From Planctomycetia bacterium (GTDB lineage: Bacteria > Planctomycetota > Planctomycetia > Pirellulales > UBA1268): 59,409 nucleotides of DNA. Under the pieces are notes generated by a model. The model saw only the letters and a program-made list of their open reading frames with translations, was not told the DNA's origin and made no database searches. Positions 1 to 59,409 of this stretch are shown here, piece after piece; positions within the stretch are counted from its first letter, which is position 1; each line of letters starts with the position of its first letter. Position numbers and translations under genes: made by a program. The stretch is from positions 1-59,409 of the forward strand of contig JAIOPD010000046.1 in the NCBI GenBank assembly GCA_021414115.1, written 5' to 3'.

Positions 1-132
1 TGACAGCCCGCGTCACGGCCGTTCAATCCTCACCGAGGTAAGACCATCGACCGGAGAGCCGTGTGCGGGAGATCCGCCAGCACGGTTCGGAGGGAGGGGG
101 GCCCGAACCCAATCGGGCCTCCCTACCCCTAT
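1..132 (+). mobile_element. Group II intron, 3' end only (domains IV-VI)
   Basis: The first 132 bases look like the 3' end of a group II intron cut by the window edge. Positions 56-88 fold as a domain V hairpin: GAGCCGT pairs with ACGGTTC, the AGC triad is at 57-59, and the upper stem carries a GAGA loop. Positions 89-132 form a GC-rich domain VI stem with an unpaired A at 125, seven bases before the end, as expected for the branch point. The end is AT at 131-132, matching the AY rule. The sequence after it (from 133) is the downstream half of a repeat found elsewhere in the window, which fixes the 3' splice site independently. The intron-encoded protein, if there is one, lies outside the window. 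Confidence 0.82.
56..132 (+). ncRNA. Group II intron domain V and domain VI
   Basis: Domain V (56-88) is the catalytic hairpin with the AGC triad at its base and a two-base bulge on the 3' side. Domain VI (89-132) is a long G-run/C-run stem with the candidate branch adenosine at 125. Seen directly: base pairing and spacing. Inferred: that the full intron is active. Confidence 0.8.
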
Positions 133-214
133 CGGGTGGCGCTCGTGTTGGCTCCGCGGAGCGGGTTGGGGTGGAGGGCGTATTCCCCGCGCTCGCGCTT
201 GGGGCTTCCCGATC
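133..214 (+). repeat. Dispersed palindromic repeat, locus 1 (downstream half, split by intron)
   Basis: This begins CGGGTGGC directly at the intron 3' junction, then continues through CGGAGCGGGTTGG and a B arm at about 172-210 that ends in CGCTTGGGGCTTCCC. The same order and nearly the same spacing are seen at 37225-37310, where no intron is present. The A arm expected upstream is missing from the window because the intron separates it. The repeat lies just past the 3' end of queE. Confidence 0.85.
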
Positions 215-12815: not shown

Positions 12816-12947
12816 GCGTTGGGGTGGCAGGCCTCTTCCCCGCGCTCGCGCTTGGGGCTTCCTGACGGAGAGGCGTCGCGATGCGTGAGGCGTCGCCTCG
12901 GGTGCCCGGGGAAGCCCGGAGCGCGAGCGACGGGTATACGGGTGGCC
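12816..12947 (+). repeat. Dispersed palindromic repeat, locus 3 (B then A; intact intron target)
   Basis: The B arm occupies about 12816-12866 and the A arm 12909-12947. The A arm continues CGACGGGTATACGGGTGGCC, which is what an uninterrupted version of the intron insertion site at the window ends would look like. It lies between the convergent 3' ends of hpnH and ettA. Confidence 0.88.
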
Positions 12948-24049: not shown

Positions 24050-24230
24050 TTGCGCGACCGCGGCGTATACGGACCGCCTCGAGACGGTGCTGGAGTGGCC
24101 CTCGGCGCTGCCTCCAATCAGGAAGCCCCAAGCGCGACCGCGGGGTATACGCCCTCCATCCCGTTTCGTTCCTCGGTACCCTCACGCTCAGCCGCCCGGA
24201 TACCCGTCGCTCGCGCTCCGGGCTTCCCGA
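24050..24230 (-). repeat. Dispersed palindromic repeat, locus 5 (B and A arms, reverse orientation)
   Basis: The B arm in reverse orientation is at about 24119-24166 and the A arm at 24196-24230. A degenerate B-like stretch is at 24050-24076. The locus lies between the convergent 3' ends of the hpnE-peptidase gene and hpnG. The remaining sequence in 23947-24387 shows no gene. Confidence 0.82.
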
Positions 24231-32470: not shown

Positions 32471-32583
32471 GTCAGGAAGCCCCAAGCGCCAGCGCGGGGA
32501 ATACGTCCACCACGTCTGACGGCTCCTCGCCATCAATACGGTCGCGCCCCGGATACCCGTCGCTCGCGCTCCGGGCTTCCCCG
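32471..32583 (-). repeat. Dispersed palindromic repeat, locus 6 (B and A arms, reverse orientation)
   Basis: The B arm is at about 32471-32512 and the A arm at 32549-32583, the same A-B order as at 37197-37310 when read on the minus strand. It lies between the convergent 3' ends of surE and the kinase gene and is joined to the palindrome at 32611-32742. Confidence 0.87.
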
Positions 32584-37196: not shown

Positions 37197-37310
37197 GGGG
37201 AAGCCCGGAGCGCGAGCGACGGGTAGACGGGTGGCTACCCGTGAGGATGGTGCGGAGCGGGTTGGCGTGGAGGGCGTATTCCCCGCGCTGGCGCTTGGGG
37301 CTTCCCGACA
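37197..37310 (+). repeat. Dispersed palindromic repeat, locus 7 (A and B arms)
   Basis: The A arm is at 37197-37232, continuing CGACGGGTAGACGGGTGGC, and the B arm at about 37253-37310. This is the best complete version in forward orientation. It lies between the convergent 3' ends of ilvD and the proline-rich secreted gene. A fragment of an A arm (GGGAAGCCCGGCTG) follows at about 37334. Confidence 0.88.
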
Positions 37311-53798: not shown

Positions 53799-53851
53799 AA
53801 CGGTAGTGGGATGTCATGTGTTGTTGGAAACGTCAGTGGAAACGGAGCATC

Positions 53852-56800
53852 ATGGATTTCATATTCTGCCGCCTCGCTGGCCTCTGTCACGCCACTGCAG
53901 TGTTGGTGCTCATCGCAGCGCTGCAGCAGGCTCACGGGCAGGTGGCTGTGTTCGTCGATCCCGACTGGGCGACGCTTTCGCGGAACGACGTGGTGCCGGC
54001 GCCGCTAATTGCCGACCTCCTCGCGAAGCACGTTGTGGTCACGAGGCTCTCGGCGGATGACCTCGGCAACCCGGTGAAGCTCGATGCCACGAAGTTGCCC
54101 GTGCTCGTGCTGCCGGAGACGGACGCGCTGCCCGAGGCAGCGATTCCTGCGCTGCAGGCCTTTCGCAAGGCAGGTGGCAGCCTCGTCTATTTTCGCGACC
54201 CCTTCGCGAAGGTCGCCGTGCGTGAACCCAAGCCAGCGCCGGGACAGCCGCGGTGGACGACGGCACCGGCGACCGAAGCTCAGCGCAACGAGGCCGCGGA
54301 TCCGCTCCTGCTCCGCACGGCCGGCACGGTACGGCATGACCGGCCCTGCAGCCGCACCGTGCCTGCGAATCCGCTTGGCATCACGCAGGCGATGCTCGAG
54401 AGCAGCCTGCCGAACCAGCAGCGGCTTGATCCGAAGTCGTTACCGGCTGGCGATGAGCTGATCCCGCTCGTGATGGTCGAGCAGGAGGGCCAGGGCCCTG
54501 CCCTGCCGATCGCAGCGGCGATCCGGCGACGGTGCCCGCAGGCGAAGGGGGCATCTGATATCTGGCTCGGCCAGACCGTCTGGAATCTCGATGGTCGTGA
54601 GCGGTGGTTCGCCGAGCAACTGCTCGTCCGCGGCGTGCTCTGGTGTCTGCAGGAGCGGGGACTCAAGACCGCGGCCGACGTGGCGGCCGTCCACGCCTGG
54701 CTCGACGCGGTTCCCAAGCCGGCGCCGTTGCCTCGCGATCTCCCGATCACGCGCACGCCCCGCCCCTGGGGCGATTCACTCGTGCCGCGTTCGCCGCCGC
54801 CCGCCAAGCGGCTCGTGGCAGTCGATCTTTCGCGGCTGCCACTGGATGAACGAGCCGCACTCTGCTGCCTCCAGGGGCTCACGTCCCGCCGCCAGCCGTC
54901 GATCTGGCTGCTGCGTTCCGGCGGGCCTCACGACCAGGATCGCTTTTGGCTCGATCAGCACGTGCAACAGGGCCTGATCGAGGGCTACGACGTCATTCCC
55001 GACTGGACCACGCTCGTCCGCGAGCATGCTGCCGAGATCAAAGGCGCTATCATCGCCGACCTCGCCTGCGATCGCAGTGACGTGATCGCGATGAACGTCG
55101 CTGCCTGCGAGGACCTTCTGCTCTGCACACCCGCACTCGCCGAGAAGCTCGGCCTGCCTGTGAAGGTGGACCTCCGTGGCCGCTTCGCCACCTATCTCGA
55201 CGGGATGGAGTGGGTCTGGGCCACCTACCGCGACCGGCTCTCGCGACACGCGCTCAACTACTTCCATCCCGCCCGGCTCGCCTGGGGCAACGTCGATCAG
55301 TGCTACCAGTGGCGGATCCCGATGGTCTGGACGGCGTACAAGGACGACGCCTTCGCGAAAGGAGCTGACCCGGCCCGCGAACACGACCTCGTTGCCCGAA
55401 TGCTCGCCGCGCTGGACACGCATTCGATCGTAAATGGCTGGCCGTCGTTCGGTCCGCGGCTCGGTGTGGACGAATACATCGCCGTGATGCAGGCGACGCC
55501 CTACTCGCATGGCTATGTGCCCAGCGACGGCCTCGCCAACATGAGCGTGATGAGCGGAGTGACACCGCCCGAGGTCACGCGGCCCGCGCAGCCGCCGGCG
55601 CCACCCGTCGAGCCGGGGAAGATCTATCTGAGCCTCGTGATCTCCGACGGCGACAATCTCTCGCCGTGGATGGACTACTTCCGGCAGCATTACTTCGCCG
55701 CCGACACGCCCGACCTGCCGTTCGGCATAACGATCGGCCCGACGATTCGCGAGGCGATGCCGGCGGCGACCCGCTGGTATGCCGAGCACGCCGGGCCTGG
55801 CGTCGAGTTTCTCTGCGGCGTGAGCGGGGCGACGTATGTGAGCCCGGAAGTGTTTGCGACGCGGCTTACCGATCCGGAGGCCGCCTGGAAAATCTTCTTC
55901 GGTGACACCGCCCGCAGCATGCAAACCCTTGGGCTCAAGACGCTCAACGTCTCGCCGCGGGGTGAGCCGCTCGCCGATCGCTACGCCCGCGCGCTTCCCT
56001 TTTGCCACAGCATCATCAACAGCTGGAACCGACGCGGTGACGATCCCGATGCGCTCGTCGAGCAGCTGCCGTGTGGTATGCCCGCCTTCTGGAGCAGCAC
56101 GCCGGGCATGCTTCGATTCGATCCGCCGGCCGCCCAAGACGGGGGCGCGGCGATGGCCCGGGCGTTTTACGGCGATCTCGACGTGTTGGTCGGCCGGCGG
56201 CTCGCTGACCGGGAGCCCGTGTTCGTCTCGAGCCTGCTGTCGTGCTGGGAGTGGAACAAGGAGCCACTGAAACAACTCGTTGCCCAGAAGCCCGACCACG
56301 TCGTGTTCGTCACGCCTGCGCAGCTCGCGGCGCTGGCGAAGCAAGCCCCACGGAAGCCCGAAGGCGAATGGATCGGGTTCAATCAGCCGGTCGAACGCCG
56401 GCTGCCTCCGACCGGTGCCGAAAGCCGGCTCGACTGGAAGGGCGTCGGCTGGTTCTGGACCGGCGAGGCGACGCGTGCGACCGATACGGCCGCCGCGGGC
56501 CGCCGCTCTTTCCGCTGGAACGTGCGGCTCCCCGAGCCCGGCGAATCTGCCATCCGCGCGGCGTGGGTGCAGCTCACCGGCGACGACCGGGCAGATCTGT
56601 ATATCAACGGCCACCGACGGTGCGAGGCGACGGACTGGGCCAAGCCCGTCGAACGCGAGGTGACTGAGTATCTGCGGCCGGGAAACAACGTGCTCGGTAT
56701 CGCCGGCAGCAATGGCGGAGGCGCCGCAGGCTGGGCCCTGAAGCTCGTCATCGAAATGGCCGACGGCCGTGTGCTCGAACTCTCGCCAGCGGTCGGCGAC

Positions 56801-59080
56801 GTTCTCTGGACCGACGCTGCCGATCCCGAGGGGAAATGGGCGGCGCCCGAGACGAGCACGGCCGGGTGGAAGTCGGCAGTGCGGCTCGGCGACGTCGGCA
56901 TCGCGCCGTGGGGAGCCGTAAAGCCCACCGGCTTCGTGCCTGGCAGCAACCAGCCGGCCCCGGCGCCGCTCCTGCGGAAGACGTTCACGGTCGAAAGAAA
57001 GGTGAAACGGGCGACGCTCCAGAGCAGCGGACTCGGCTGTCACGACGTGTTGTGCAATGGCACGAAGGTCGGCGACGCGGTGCTCGGCCCCGCCATGACG
57101 CAGTACGACAAAACCGTGCTCTATGTCGAGCACGACGTCACGAGCCTCGTGAAGCCGGGCCGCAATGCGGTCGGCGTGATGCTCGGCCACGGCTGGTTCG
57201 CGGAGACCGTGAACACGGCCTGGAACTTCGACCACTCGCCCTGGAAAGATCGGCCAAAGGCACTGGTCACGCTCCGGCTCGACTATGAAGACGGCTCCGA
57301 GCAGACGATCGTCTCCGATGCCTCATGGAAAGCCGCCTACGGCCCCGTGCTCGTCGATGCCTTCATGAACGGCGAGGTCTACGATGCCCGCGCCGAGCAG
57401 CCGGGCTGGGCCACGGCCGAGTTCGATGACTCGTCATGGGCGGCGGCCGAGACGATGAAGCCGTCGGCGGGGCGGCTCCGCCGGGAAACGATCGCCCCGA
57501 TGCGAGTCACGCAGACCCTGCCCGCAGTGAAGCTCACGGAGCCTCGCCCAGGCGTCTGGCTTTACGACTTCGGGGAGAACATCGCCGGCTGGGCACGGAT
57601 TCGCGTGCGCGGACCAGCTGGCCAGGAAATTCGCCTCCGGTTTGGTGAGCAGCTCCGCGATGGCCGCATCGATCGTGAGCTCGGGGGCCTGATCTGGAGC
57701 GGCTGGTTCCAGCAGGATCGCTATGTGCTCAAAGGCGACGGCCTCGAGGAGTGGGAGCCGCGGTTCACGTATCACGGTTTTCGCTACGTCGAGGTCGAGG
57801 GCTGGCCCGGCACACCGGAGCTGTCGTCGGTCGAGGCCCGGTTTGTGCATACCGACTTTCCATCGGCGGGTTCATTCGAGTGCTCCGATCCGCTTCTGAA
57901 CGCGATCCATGCGGCCGTGCGCCGCAGCTACCGGGGCAATTTTCATGGTTTCCCTACCGACTGCCCCACGCGCGAGAAGAAGGGCTGGACGGGCGATGCC
58001 CATCTGGCCTGCAGTCAGGCGATGTTCAATTTCGACAACGCCGCCGGCTACCGGAAGTGGATGGGTGATTTTCTGGACGTGCAGGACGGCGAGGGTCGGC
58101 TGAAGAACGTCTGCCCGACGGCCGGCTGGGGGGGCGAGGCGAGCGACTGGAACGTGGCCGGCGTCGTCGTGCCGTGGACCGTGTTTGAGTTCACCGGCGA
58201 TCGCACGATCGTGGCGGCGAGCTATCCGATGATGAAGAAGTGGGCCGACTTCCATGCCCGTCAGGCCCCGGATTTCATCATCAAGGATGGCGTGAGCGAT
58301 TGGAGCCCGGCGAAGACGCGGACGCCGAAGGAGATCACCTCCACCTGCTTCTACCACGGTGCCGTCGAGCGGCTGGCTCGCATGGCGGAGCTGCTCGGTA
58401 AGACGGACGACGCAAAGCGGTATCGCGACCTGGCCGCATCGGTCCGCGAGGCCTTCGTCCGCGAGTTCGTGAAGCCCGACGGCACGGTCGGTGCGGGCAG
58501 CCAGAGCGCCCAGGCCTGTGCGTTGCATTTCGGCCTTCTACCCGAGCCGCTCCGGCCACTCGCCGCGGCGCAGCTCTCGGCAGCCGTCACGGCAGTCAAC
58601 GACCACGTGGACGTGGGTATCCTCGGGTCGAAGTCGCTCTTTCGGGCACTCTCCGACCACGGCCACCATGAGCAGGCCCTGCGGGTCGTGCGCCAAAAGA
58701 CCGCGCCGGGCTACGGCTGCATGATCGAGAAGGGCTGCACGACGCTCACCGAAGACTGGTGGGGCGGTGGCTCCAACAACCACATCATGTTTGGCGACAT
58801 CGGCGGCTGGTTCTACGAATACCTGGCGGGCATCCGGCCCGATCCGGAGCAGCCAGGATTCAAGCACTTCTTCCTGCAGCCGATGCCGGCCGGCGACCTT
58901 GCCTGGGTGAAGGCCGAGCACCTTTCACCGCGGGGACTGATCCGCGCGGCATGGGAGCGGCACGCGGACGGCAGTTATTCCGCGAGCTTCACCGTGCCGG
59001 TGAACGCCACGGCAACCGTCGTGCTGACCGATGGTCATCGCGCCGACGTCGGACCGGGCGACCACACCTTCTCGTGGTGA
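53852..59080 (+). CDS. Giant secreted glycosidase: GxGYxYP-like module fused to GH78 alpha-L-rhamnosidase
   Basis: A 1742-aa protein. A signal peptide (ATAVLVLIAALQQAHGQ) precedes a glutamine-amidotransferase-like domain (about 25-300). A GxGYxYP-type putative hydrolase follows (about 318-830, with AALCCLQGLTSRRQPSIWLL and YLSLVISDGDN; the naming motif is degenerate, GATYVSP). A jellyroll (about 845-1030) comes next, then GH78 (about 1038-1735). GH78 carries DCPTREKKGWTGDAH at 1370-1384, where E1375 is the likely general acid, and TTLTEDWWGGGSNNH, which holds the base. It probably removes rhamnose from extracellular glycans. ATG 53852 with GGAG upstream gives the signal peptide. Confidence 0.88.
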   Translation: MDFIFCRLAGLCHATAVLVLIAALQQAHGQVAVFVDPDWATLSRNDVVPAPLIADLLAKHVVVTRLSADDLGNPVKLDATKLPVLVLPETDALPEAAIPALQAFRKAGGSLVYFRDPFAKVAVREPKPAPGQPRWTTAPATEAQRNEAADPLLLRTAGTVRHDRPCSRTVPANPLGITQAMLESSLPNQQRLDPKSLPAGDELIPLVMVEQEGQGPALPIAAAIRRRCPQAKGASDIWLGQTVWNLDGRERWFAEQLLVRGVLWCLQERGLKTAADVAAVHAWLDAVPKPAPLPRDLPITRTPRPWGDSLVPRSPPPAKRLVAVDLSRLPLDERAALCCLQGLTSRRQPSIWLLRSGGPHDQDRFWLDQHVQQGLIEGYDVIPDWTTLVREHAAEIKGAIIADLACDRSDVIAMNVAACEDLLLCTPALAEKLGLPVKVDLRGRFATYLDGMEWVWATYRDRLSRHALNYFHPARLAWGNVDQCYQWRIPMVWTAYKDDAFAKGADPAREHDLVARMLAALDTHSIVNGWPSFGPRLGVDEYIAVMQATPYSHGYVPSDGLANMSVMSGVTPPEVTRPAQPPAPPVEPGKIYLSLVISDGDNLSPWMDYFRQHYFAADTPDLPFGITIGPTIREAMPAATRWYAEHAGPGVEFLCGVSGATYVSPEVFATRLTDPEAAWKIFFGDTARSMQTLGLKTLNVSPRGEPLADRYARALPFCHSIINSWNRRGDDPDALVEQLPCGMPAFWSSTPGMLRFDPPAAQDGGAAMARAFYGDLDVLVGRRLADREPVFVSSLLSCWEWNKEPLKQLVAQKPDHVVFVTPAQLAALAKQAPRKPEGEWIGFNQPVERRLPPTGAESRLDWKGVGWFWTGEATRATDTAAAGRRSFRWNVRLPEPGESAIRAAWVQLTGDDRADLYINGHRRCEATDWAKPVEREVTEYLRPGNNVLGIAGSNGGGAAGWALKLVIEMADGRVLELSPAVGDVLWTDAADPEGKWAAPETSTAGWKSAVRLGDVGIAPWGAVKPTGFVPGSNQPAPAPLLRKTFTVERKVKRATLQSSGLGCHDVLCNGTKVGDAVLGPAMTQYDKTVLYVEHDVTSLVKPGRNAVGVMLGHGWFAETVNTAWNFDHSPWKDRPKALVTLRLDYEDGSEQTIVSDASWKAAYGPVLVDAFMNGEVYDARAEQPGWATAEFDDSSWAAAETMKPSAGRLRRETIAPMRVTQTLPAVKLTEPRPGVWLYDFGENIAGWARIRVRGPAGQEIRLRFGEQLRDGRIDRELGGLIWSGWFQQDRYVLKGDGLEEWEPRFTYHGFRYVEVEGWPGTPELSSVEARFVHTDFPSAGSFECSDPLLNAIHAAVRRSYRGNFHGFPTDCPTREKKGWTGDAHLACSQAMFNFDNAAGYRKWMGDFLDVQDGEGRLKNVCPTAGWGGEASDWNVAGVVVPWTVFEFTGDRTIVAASYPMMKKWADFHARQAPDFIIKDGVSDWSPAKTRTPKEITSTCFYHGAVERLARMAELLGKTDDAKRYRDLAASVREAFVREFVKPDGTVGAGSQSAQACALHFGLLPEPLRPLAAAQLSAAVTAVNDHVDVGILGSKSLFRALSDHGHHEQALRVVRQKTAPGYGCMIEKGCTTLTEDWWGGGSNNHIMFGDIGGWFYEYLAGIRPDPEQPGFKHFFLQPMPAGDLAWVKAEHLSPRGLIRAAWERHADGSYSASFTVPVNATATVVLTDGHRADVGPGDHTFSW

Positions 59081-59237: not shown

Positions 59238-59268
59238 CGGGAAGCCCGGAGCGCGAGCGACGGGTATT
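59238..59268 (+). repeat. Dispersed palindromic repeat, locus 8 (A arm, split by intron)
   Basis: An A arm beginning GGGAAGCCCGGAGCGCGAGC and ending CGACGGGTATT, where the group II intron begins. The matching downstream half is not in the window. It lies past the 3' end of the GH78 gene; 59081-59237 shows nothing recognisable. Confidence 0.88.
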
Positions 59269-59409
59269 GTGCGATTGCGAGTGACCTGAACCAGCAGGGT
59301 GTGAGTCCCTGTCGGGGTTTGGCTTGAACCCCGTAGCCGATCGAAACTGCATCCCCGCGAGGGGGTGTGGAGAGCATCAGGAGGCGAAAAACCAGTCCGT
59401 AGGATGACG
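59269..59409 (+). mobile_element. Group II intron, 5' end only (domain I)
   Basis: It begins GTGCGATTGCGAGTGACC, fitting the GTGYG 5' consensus, followed by small stem-loops typical of domain I such as CAGCAGGG with CCCTGTCGG and CGGGGTTTGG with GAACCCCG. It runs off the window end. The boundary is fixed by the repeat arm that stops exactly at 59268. Together with 1-132 it suggests the same intron type at both ends. Confidence 0.8.

Follow-up and report, generated by a model that had tools for sequence, protein, structure and literature searches.

A putatively IIC-like group II intron at one position of a dispersed REP-like repeat in a planctomycete genome

The described insertion specificities of bacterial group II introns comprise homing sites, terminators and attC sites (PMC4424553). 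Group IIC introns insert after intrinsic terminators (PMC4424553; PMC8919778, which cites Robart et al. 2007 on this point), as do intron types g6, U1 and U2 (PMC8919778). That a IIC holoenzyme can hold a DNA hairpin is known from a solved complex with a DNA stem-loop, whose stem contains G-A pairs and which also has a spacer and an EBS1-IBS1 pairing of 4(+1) bp (PMC10190682). REPs are the targets of the insertion sequences IS1397 and ISPpu9/10 (PMC1525189), and 2 of the 9 group II intron copies of Pseudomonas putida KT2440 are listed as REP-associated (Tobes and Pareja 2006, PMC1525189, table); we found no analysis of the site, hairpin or EBS1 of that intron in the text of PMC1525189. Hairpin-directed insertion by group IIC introns is already known; we found no account of systematic REP homing by group II introns anywhere in the literature searched, from which subscription papers were mostly out of scope, and its novelty is unproven.

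Here we describe a group II intron found at both ends of the window, the whole stretch of 59,409 nt that was analysed, which is one contig (C31) of an assembly of 4.35 Mb in 144 contigs (95% complete). Like terminator-associated group IIC introns, the element has a reverse transcriptase/maturase that appears to lack an endonuclease, lies a few nucleotides 3' of a hairpin in intergenic DNA, and is multicopy. Unlike them, it resides in a dispersed palindromic repeat that lacks a T-tract, and introns of this type are predicted to pair with the 5' exon over up to 6 nt, into the hairpin stem; in the solved IIC target, by contrast, IBS1 measures 4(+1) nt and is preceded by a spacer. Hairpin-forming repeated DNA is also the target of the group IIC-attC integron introns (PMC4424553), but attC belongs to integrons, and the target here is a repeat present hundreds of times in the chromosome. 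The P. putida intron shares the association with REPs; that case differs in that the association is 22%, stands in one table line, and is compared here without regard to intron class. IS1397 and ISPpu9/10 likewise use REPs as abundant landing sites, although they do so with DNA transposases and by an unrelated mechanism.

Our main reading, to which we assign a probability of about 0.88, is that a mobile IIC-like group II intron uses retrotransposition to invade a single family of REP-like repeats. A dedicated repeat family would put hundreds of intergenic sites within an intron's reach, and the tie connects two kinds of poorly understood repetitive DNA.

Intron junctions in the window and across the assembly

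The relevant features of the window are as follows.

1..132, +: 3' end of another intron copy of the same subfamily, entering from beyond the contig (seven identical 3' ends plus the C22 copy; junction list)
3..41, +: tail of the intron-encoded protein, last 12 codons and stop, TARVTAVQSSPR (compare AARAAAVQSSRR, ending the C22 protein)
54..132, +: intron domains V and VI, ending CCCCTAT (Rfam RF00029, 52.6 bits)
133..140, +: 3' exon CGGGTGGC, which resumes the interrupted repeat; its first base, C, is IBS3 (junction comparison)
181..210, -: inverted partner arm, GGGAAGCCCCAAGCGCGAGCGCGGGGAATA, of the repeat unit to which the 3' exon at 133..140 belongs (sequence reading; arms are about 80 nt apart elsewhere)
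12909..12946, +: empty site, uninterrupted repeat GGGAAGCCCGGAGCGCGAGCGACGGGTATA then CGGGTGGC (sequence and pattern match)
24201..24228, -: further repeat copy (degenerate pattern match)
32554..32581, -: further repeat copy (degenerate pattern match)
37198..37225, +: further repeat copy (degenerate pattern match)
53816-59080: ORF of 1,754 aa upstream of the intron, ending 188 nt before it; judged by eye, presumably a rhamnosidase-type protein joined to another domain
59239..59268, +: intron-interrupted copy of the REP-like repeat, whose arm GGGAAGCCCGGAGCGCGAGCGACGGGTATT is the 5' exon (sequence reading; pattern matches)
59244..59265, +: predicted hairpin of the repeat, with a GCCCG stem, tandem G/A mismatches, a GC stem and a GCGA loop at 59253-59256 (DNA fold; compensatory change in congeneric repeats)
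59263..59268, +: IBS1, GGTATT, putative partner of EBS1, overlapping the base of the hairpin (from pairing in relatives)
59269..59409, +: intron start, first 141 nt, running off the contig (identical on seven contigs; nhmmer profile common to intron relatives)

At the right end of the window, direct reading of the sequence has CGACGGGTATT stopping at 59268 and GTGCGATTGCGAGTG beginning at 59269, where a group II intron starts within the dispersed palindromic repeat. In the uninterrupted copy at 12909-12946, CGACGGGTATA CGGGTGGC, the sequence runs through GGGTATA straight into CGGGTGGC. Both positions agree with the junction given in a preliminary description of this DNA. Since an intron 3' end occupies positions 1-132, the contig both starts and stops in introns, and the protein tail at 3-41 implies that the subfamily in the window carries a maturase ORF. 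The whole contig thus spans the interval between two introns in two repeats; the left copy had previously gone unmentioned.

The contigs of the assembly contain eight 5' ends of the intron and as many 3' ends. All 16 junctions occupy a single repeat position, ...CGGGTAT(x)/intron/CGGGTGGC, bearing out the earlier proposal that the repeat is a home used at one exact nucleotide. The 141-nt intron start is identical on seven contigs (three slightly shortened by contig ends), which define the main subfamily; the eighth, on contig C22, is 79% identical to it. Every 5' end reads GTGCGAT, in agreement with the conserved group II start GUGCG, and follows a repeat ending in GGGTAT(C/T/A) or, once, GGGTGTC, while all eight 3' ends are followed by CGGG(T/C)(G/T)GC. 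With about 645 repeats in 4.35 Mb, the probability of eight 5' ends agreeing by chance is about 1e-33.

Repeats are natural substrates for recombination, and the copies might instead stem from homologous recombination or duplication of repeat-bearing segments. The flanks outside the repeat, however, differ among all eight upstream and all eight downstream sides; the base at -1 (C, T or A) and the repeat subtype vary among copies, so that separate, pre-existing repeats appear to have been hit; and the same site is occupied by two intron subfamilies whose 5' ends share 79% identity. We consider this origin very improbable, and independent insertion is the reading adopted below.

Outside C22, almost every intron end coincides with a contig end or falls a few bases short of it, and no more than some 141 nt of the sequence common to the main copies is present in the assembly. 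Such a pattern is expected where near-identical copies collapse during assembly; the interior of all seven main copies, about 1.9 kb, is absent from the assembly and was probably left unbinned for this reason. The same pattern would suit an artefact of assembly or binning, to which we give practically no credence: the single contig C22 spans the repeat, the entire intron inside it and both flanks; a 1,890-nt copy is found in a congener, again in this repeat family; and the complete genome of Desulfosarcina alkanivorans behaves alike with a repeat of its own.

The preliminary description had suggested that the repeats offer safe sites at gene ends. In all eight downstream flanks the longest ORF is on the opposite strand and aimed at the intron, and in the upstream flanks it is on the intron strand in five of eight and on the other strand in three, these having a long ORF on each strand; longest ORFs are only a rough guide in a G+C-rich genome. 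This arrangement fits intergenic sites between convergent genes.

The complete element and its protein

The C22 copy is a complete intron of 1,890 nt (L049 501-2390). Its ORF is intact and predicts a 447-aa reverse transcriptase/maturase (TIGR04416, 384.8 bits; RVT_1; GIIM), and domains V-VI are likewise intact (Rfam RF00029 at L049 2312-2390). The reverse transcriptase with its maturase domain, together with the domain V-VI matches, confirms the group II identity first read from the intron start. The domain search of the 447-aa protein gave only RVT_1 and GIIM, with no match to an endonuclease domain. Its nearest solved maturases are those of group IIC, GsI-IIC (235.8 bits) and 7uim (217.4), ahead of 6me0 (169.3) and LtrA (139.2). 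Protein similarity and hairpin-adjacent insertion agree with the group IIC likeness raised earlier and support an intron that probably works like group IIC and is a candidate member of that class. Over its last 79 nt C22 is 100% identical to the window subfamily, despite 79% identity at the 5' end, a mosaic suggesting that recombination or conversion may have taken place.

The only other complete copy is a 1,890-nt relative in the congener G017 (L050 and L131, which we take to be the same locus because their junctions are identical), inserted directly after GACGGGAATG in a variant of the same repeat. It is 96% identical to the window subfamily at the 5' end and 97% at the 3' end, where the C22 copy scores 79% and 94%. 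A second G017 intron, the remnant L159 (G017:C70), sits after AGGAAGCCCCAAGCGCAAGCGCGGGGAAGC. Its reverse transcriptase is broken, yet it is still located in the repeat. With the window subfamily, C22 and the G017 introns, the repeat is home to no fewer than three intron subfamilies in two species.

Hairpin, EBS1 and flanking bases

Eighty related loci from other genomes were collected, and their 5' ends were placed with an iterated profile. The EBS1 loop was found by intron alignment, beginning directly after GGCGAGCCTGC and followed further on by GGCGAAGCC; 13 loci in which the search expression did not match this loop were excluded from the pairing test. Across 34 distinct pairs, the first six bases of the loop form a mean of 5.25/6 pairs with the last six exon bases, against 2.09/6 after shuffling, and none of 10,000 shuffles reached the observed mean. 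Examples are TCATGC with GCATGA (L107), TAGGTC with GACCTA (L061), GGTCTG with CAGACC (L086) and TATCCC with GGGATA (L098). The C22 intron pairs TTTACC with GGTATA at 5/6, with one mismatch, and L050 pairs CATACC with GGAATG, also at 5/6. In many relatives the pairing extends over 6 nt and overlaps the stem, and in most the first base of the 3' exon is C. The EBS-IBS pairing anticipated in the preliminary description thus stands for the intron family, whereas the window subfamily's own EBS1 falls in unassembled sequence.

That EBS1 may nevertheless be predicted in part. The base at -1 is C or T in 7/7 main-subfamily copies against 13/32 scanned repeats (Fisher p = 0.005; the comparison was chosen post hoc, and one of the 32 repeats is the occupied copy in the window), so that a G is expected in the main-subfamily EBS1.

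Upstream of the insertion sites, hairpins score higher than in control flanks (p = 1.5e-11). In 39/53 non-redundant exons the apex of the hairpin is 10-12 nt away from the insertion site, and in most exons the stem base is 0-5 nt away; with the former distance steady and the latter variable, the constant is the spacing between apex and site, close to one helical turn. For the window repeat this spacing is 12, the 3' edge of the GCGA loop lying 12 nt before the site (GCGACGGGTATx); here the hairpin finder misassigned the structure, which has internal G/A mismatches, and the intended hairpin was taken from the DNA fold.

We propose that the intron RNA and its reverse transcriptase/maturase would recognize the repeat hairpin, extruded as single-stranded DNA, through a distance of about 11 nt from the apex, the six bases GGTATx before the site through EBS1-IBS1 pairing, and, as a third feature, the C at +1 (IBS3). 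Reverse splicing would then take place between GGTATx and CGGG, and the maturase would copy the inserted intron into DNA, with the replication fork as the probable source of the primer, given that an endonuclease domain is absent. As the repeats lie between genes, hundreds of mostly harmless sites would be on offer, and the intron may still be mobile. An endonuclease-less intron thus appears to read a hairpin and six bases. Counting against this scheme are the unassembled bodies of the main copies, the EBS1 mismatch of C22, the weak fold of the repeat, and a 6-nt IBS1 that overlaps the stem where the solved IIC target has a spacer.

Proximity to a hairpin is the rule throughout the intron family, and some relatives lie beside hairpins that look single-copy, namely L132 in the congener G020 (after GTCCCCCCGGCTCGCGCCGGGGGGCT), L086, L098 and L100. 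The introns might accordingly target any hairpin, the repeat being struck merely as the commonest one in the genome. We regard this explanation as rather unlikely, since 8/8 copies lie in one repeat family and EBS1 resembles the end of the local repeat: L050 has CATACC for GGTAT, hosts with CGTC-type hairpins have TCATT for AATGA, and the remnant L159, from a genome with GGGGAA arms, has TATTCC. Specificity therefore seems to have followed the repeat, as homing to a repeat family would have it, and such cases are natural experiments on EBS1 tracking its target.

The host repeat and the repeats of other hosts

Depending on the pattern, the genome holds 310 (28-mer, up to 3 mismatches), 581 (degenerate 28-mer) or 645 (25-mer) copies of the repeat, with 0 matches for the reversed-pattern controls. 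It has the traits of a REP: a short palindrome, in high copy number, intergenic, and with arms often in inverted pairs about 80 nt apart. Its DNA fold, at -5.5 kcal/mol, is not below that of shuffled sequences (z -0.8). Variants in G000, G014, G015, G017 and other genomes keep a CCC(N)...(N)GGG stem and a GC/GC inner stem. There is a compensatory change from C-G to G-C at repeat pair 9-22, 94.7% of cells are paired, and the covariation score of 22 sequences exceeds all 500 shuffles; because the set was hand-picked from pattern hits and the pattern fixes most stem bases, this gives mild support only. The loops are mostly GNRA-like (GCGA, GCAA, GGGA, GGAA, GAGA, GTGA), partly as a product of the search pattern. 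GNRA-like loops and tandem G/A mismatches are features usually associated with RNA.

A RAYT-driven origin of the repeat was considered and rejected: Y1_Tnp, the RAYT-type transposase, had no match in the window genome (95% complete), and its presence across the genus does not track the repeat. Nor do we favour a single element in which the intron spreads the repeats. The two repeat-richest genomes of the genus, G000 and G017, both bear the intron and have no detectable Y1 transposase, as such an element would lead one to expect, but the repeat occurs with no intron detected in G014 (137 copies), G010 (67) and G008 (28), and the intron occurs in G020 with the repeat essentially absent. A co-spreading unit is rejected on this distribution, and we think a one-element origin most improbable. 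The repeat appears instead to be independent of the intron, which colonized it. G014, G010 and G008 also serve as intron-free hosts for comparison.

In other hosts, related introns occupy repeats of other kinds. In the complete genome of Desulfosarcina alkanivorans, 7/7 introns with a recovered 5' end lie directly after CGCGGC(N)nGCCGCTCC(N)A, two of them with the same upstream flank; this repeat occurs 60 times, often as head-to-head pairs. Its reverse complement starts TAGGAGCGGC, or GTAGGAGCGGC with the C of the 3' exon, and it resembles the GTAG superfamily of REPs (PMC3733652) as far as sequence can tell. Six further loci (L079, L081, L089, L095, L107 and L122) lie in GGATTCCCGC..GCGGGAATGA/C-type hairpins (slash, insertion point), a family with 16 to 103 matches (up to 2 mismatches) in each of the six host genomes, whose sequence likewise resembles the CGTC superfamily that includes dRS3 (PMC3733652). 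In both repeat types the intron is found at the tag end of the hairpin and splits the tag: CTA/C in the GTAG type and GA/CG in the CGTC type. The window-genome repeat differs in that neither tag is found at its end.

Hairpin repeats thus appear to be landing pads for a whole intron lineage across phyla. L132 of G020 sits in a hairpin other than the window-genome repeat, and the hairpins beside L060, L061, L076, L093 and most others may or may not be multicopy; REP targeting is therefore common in this sample and not universal. We lean slightly towards the wider proposal that a widespread IIC-like lineage is specialized for REPs, with an apex gauge of about one helical turn and an EBS1 that evolves to match the REP tag of the host, such that unrelated REP families in different phyla would be dedicated homing sites. 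The near-identical introns L067-L073 of D. alkanivorans PL12, in a single REP family, are a tractable model.
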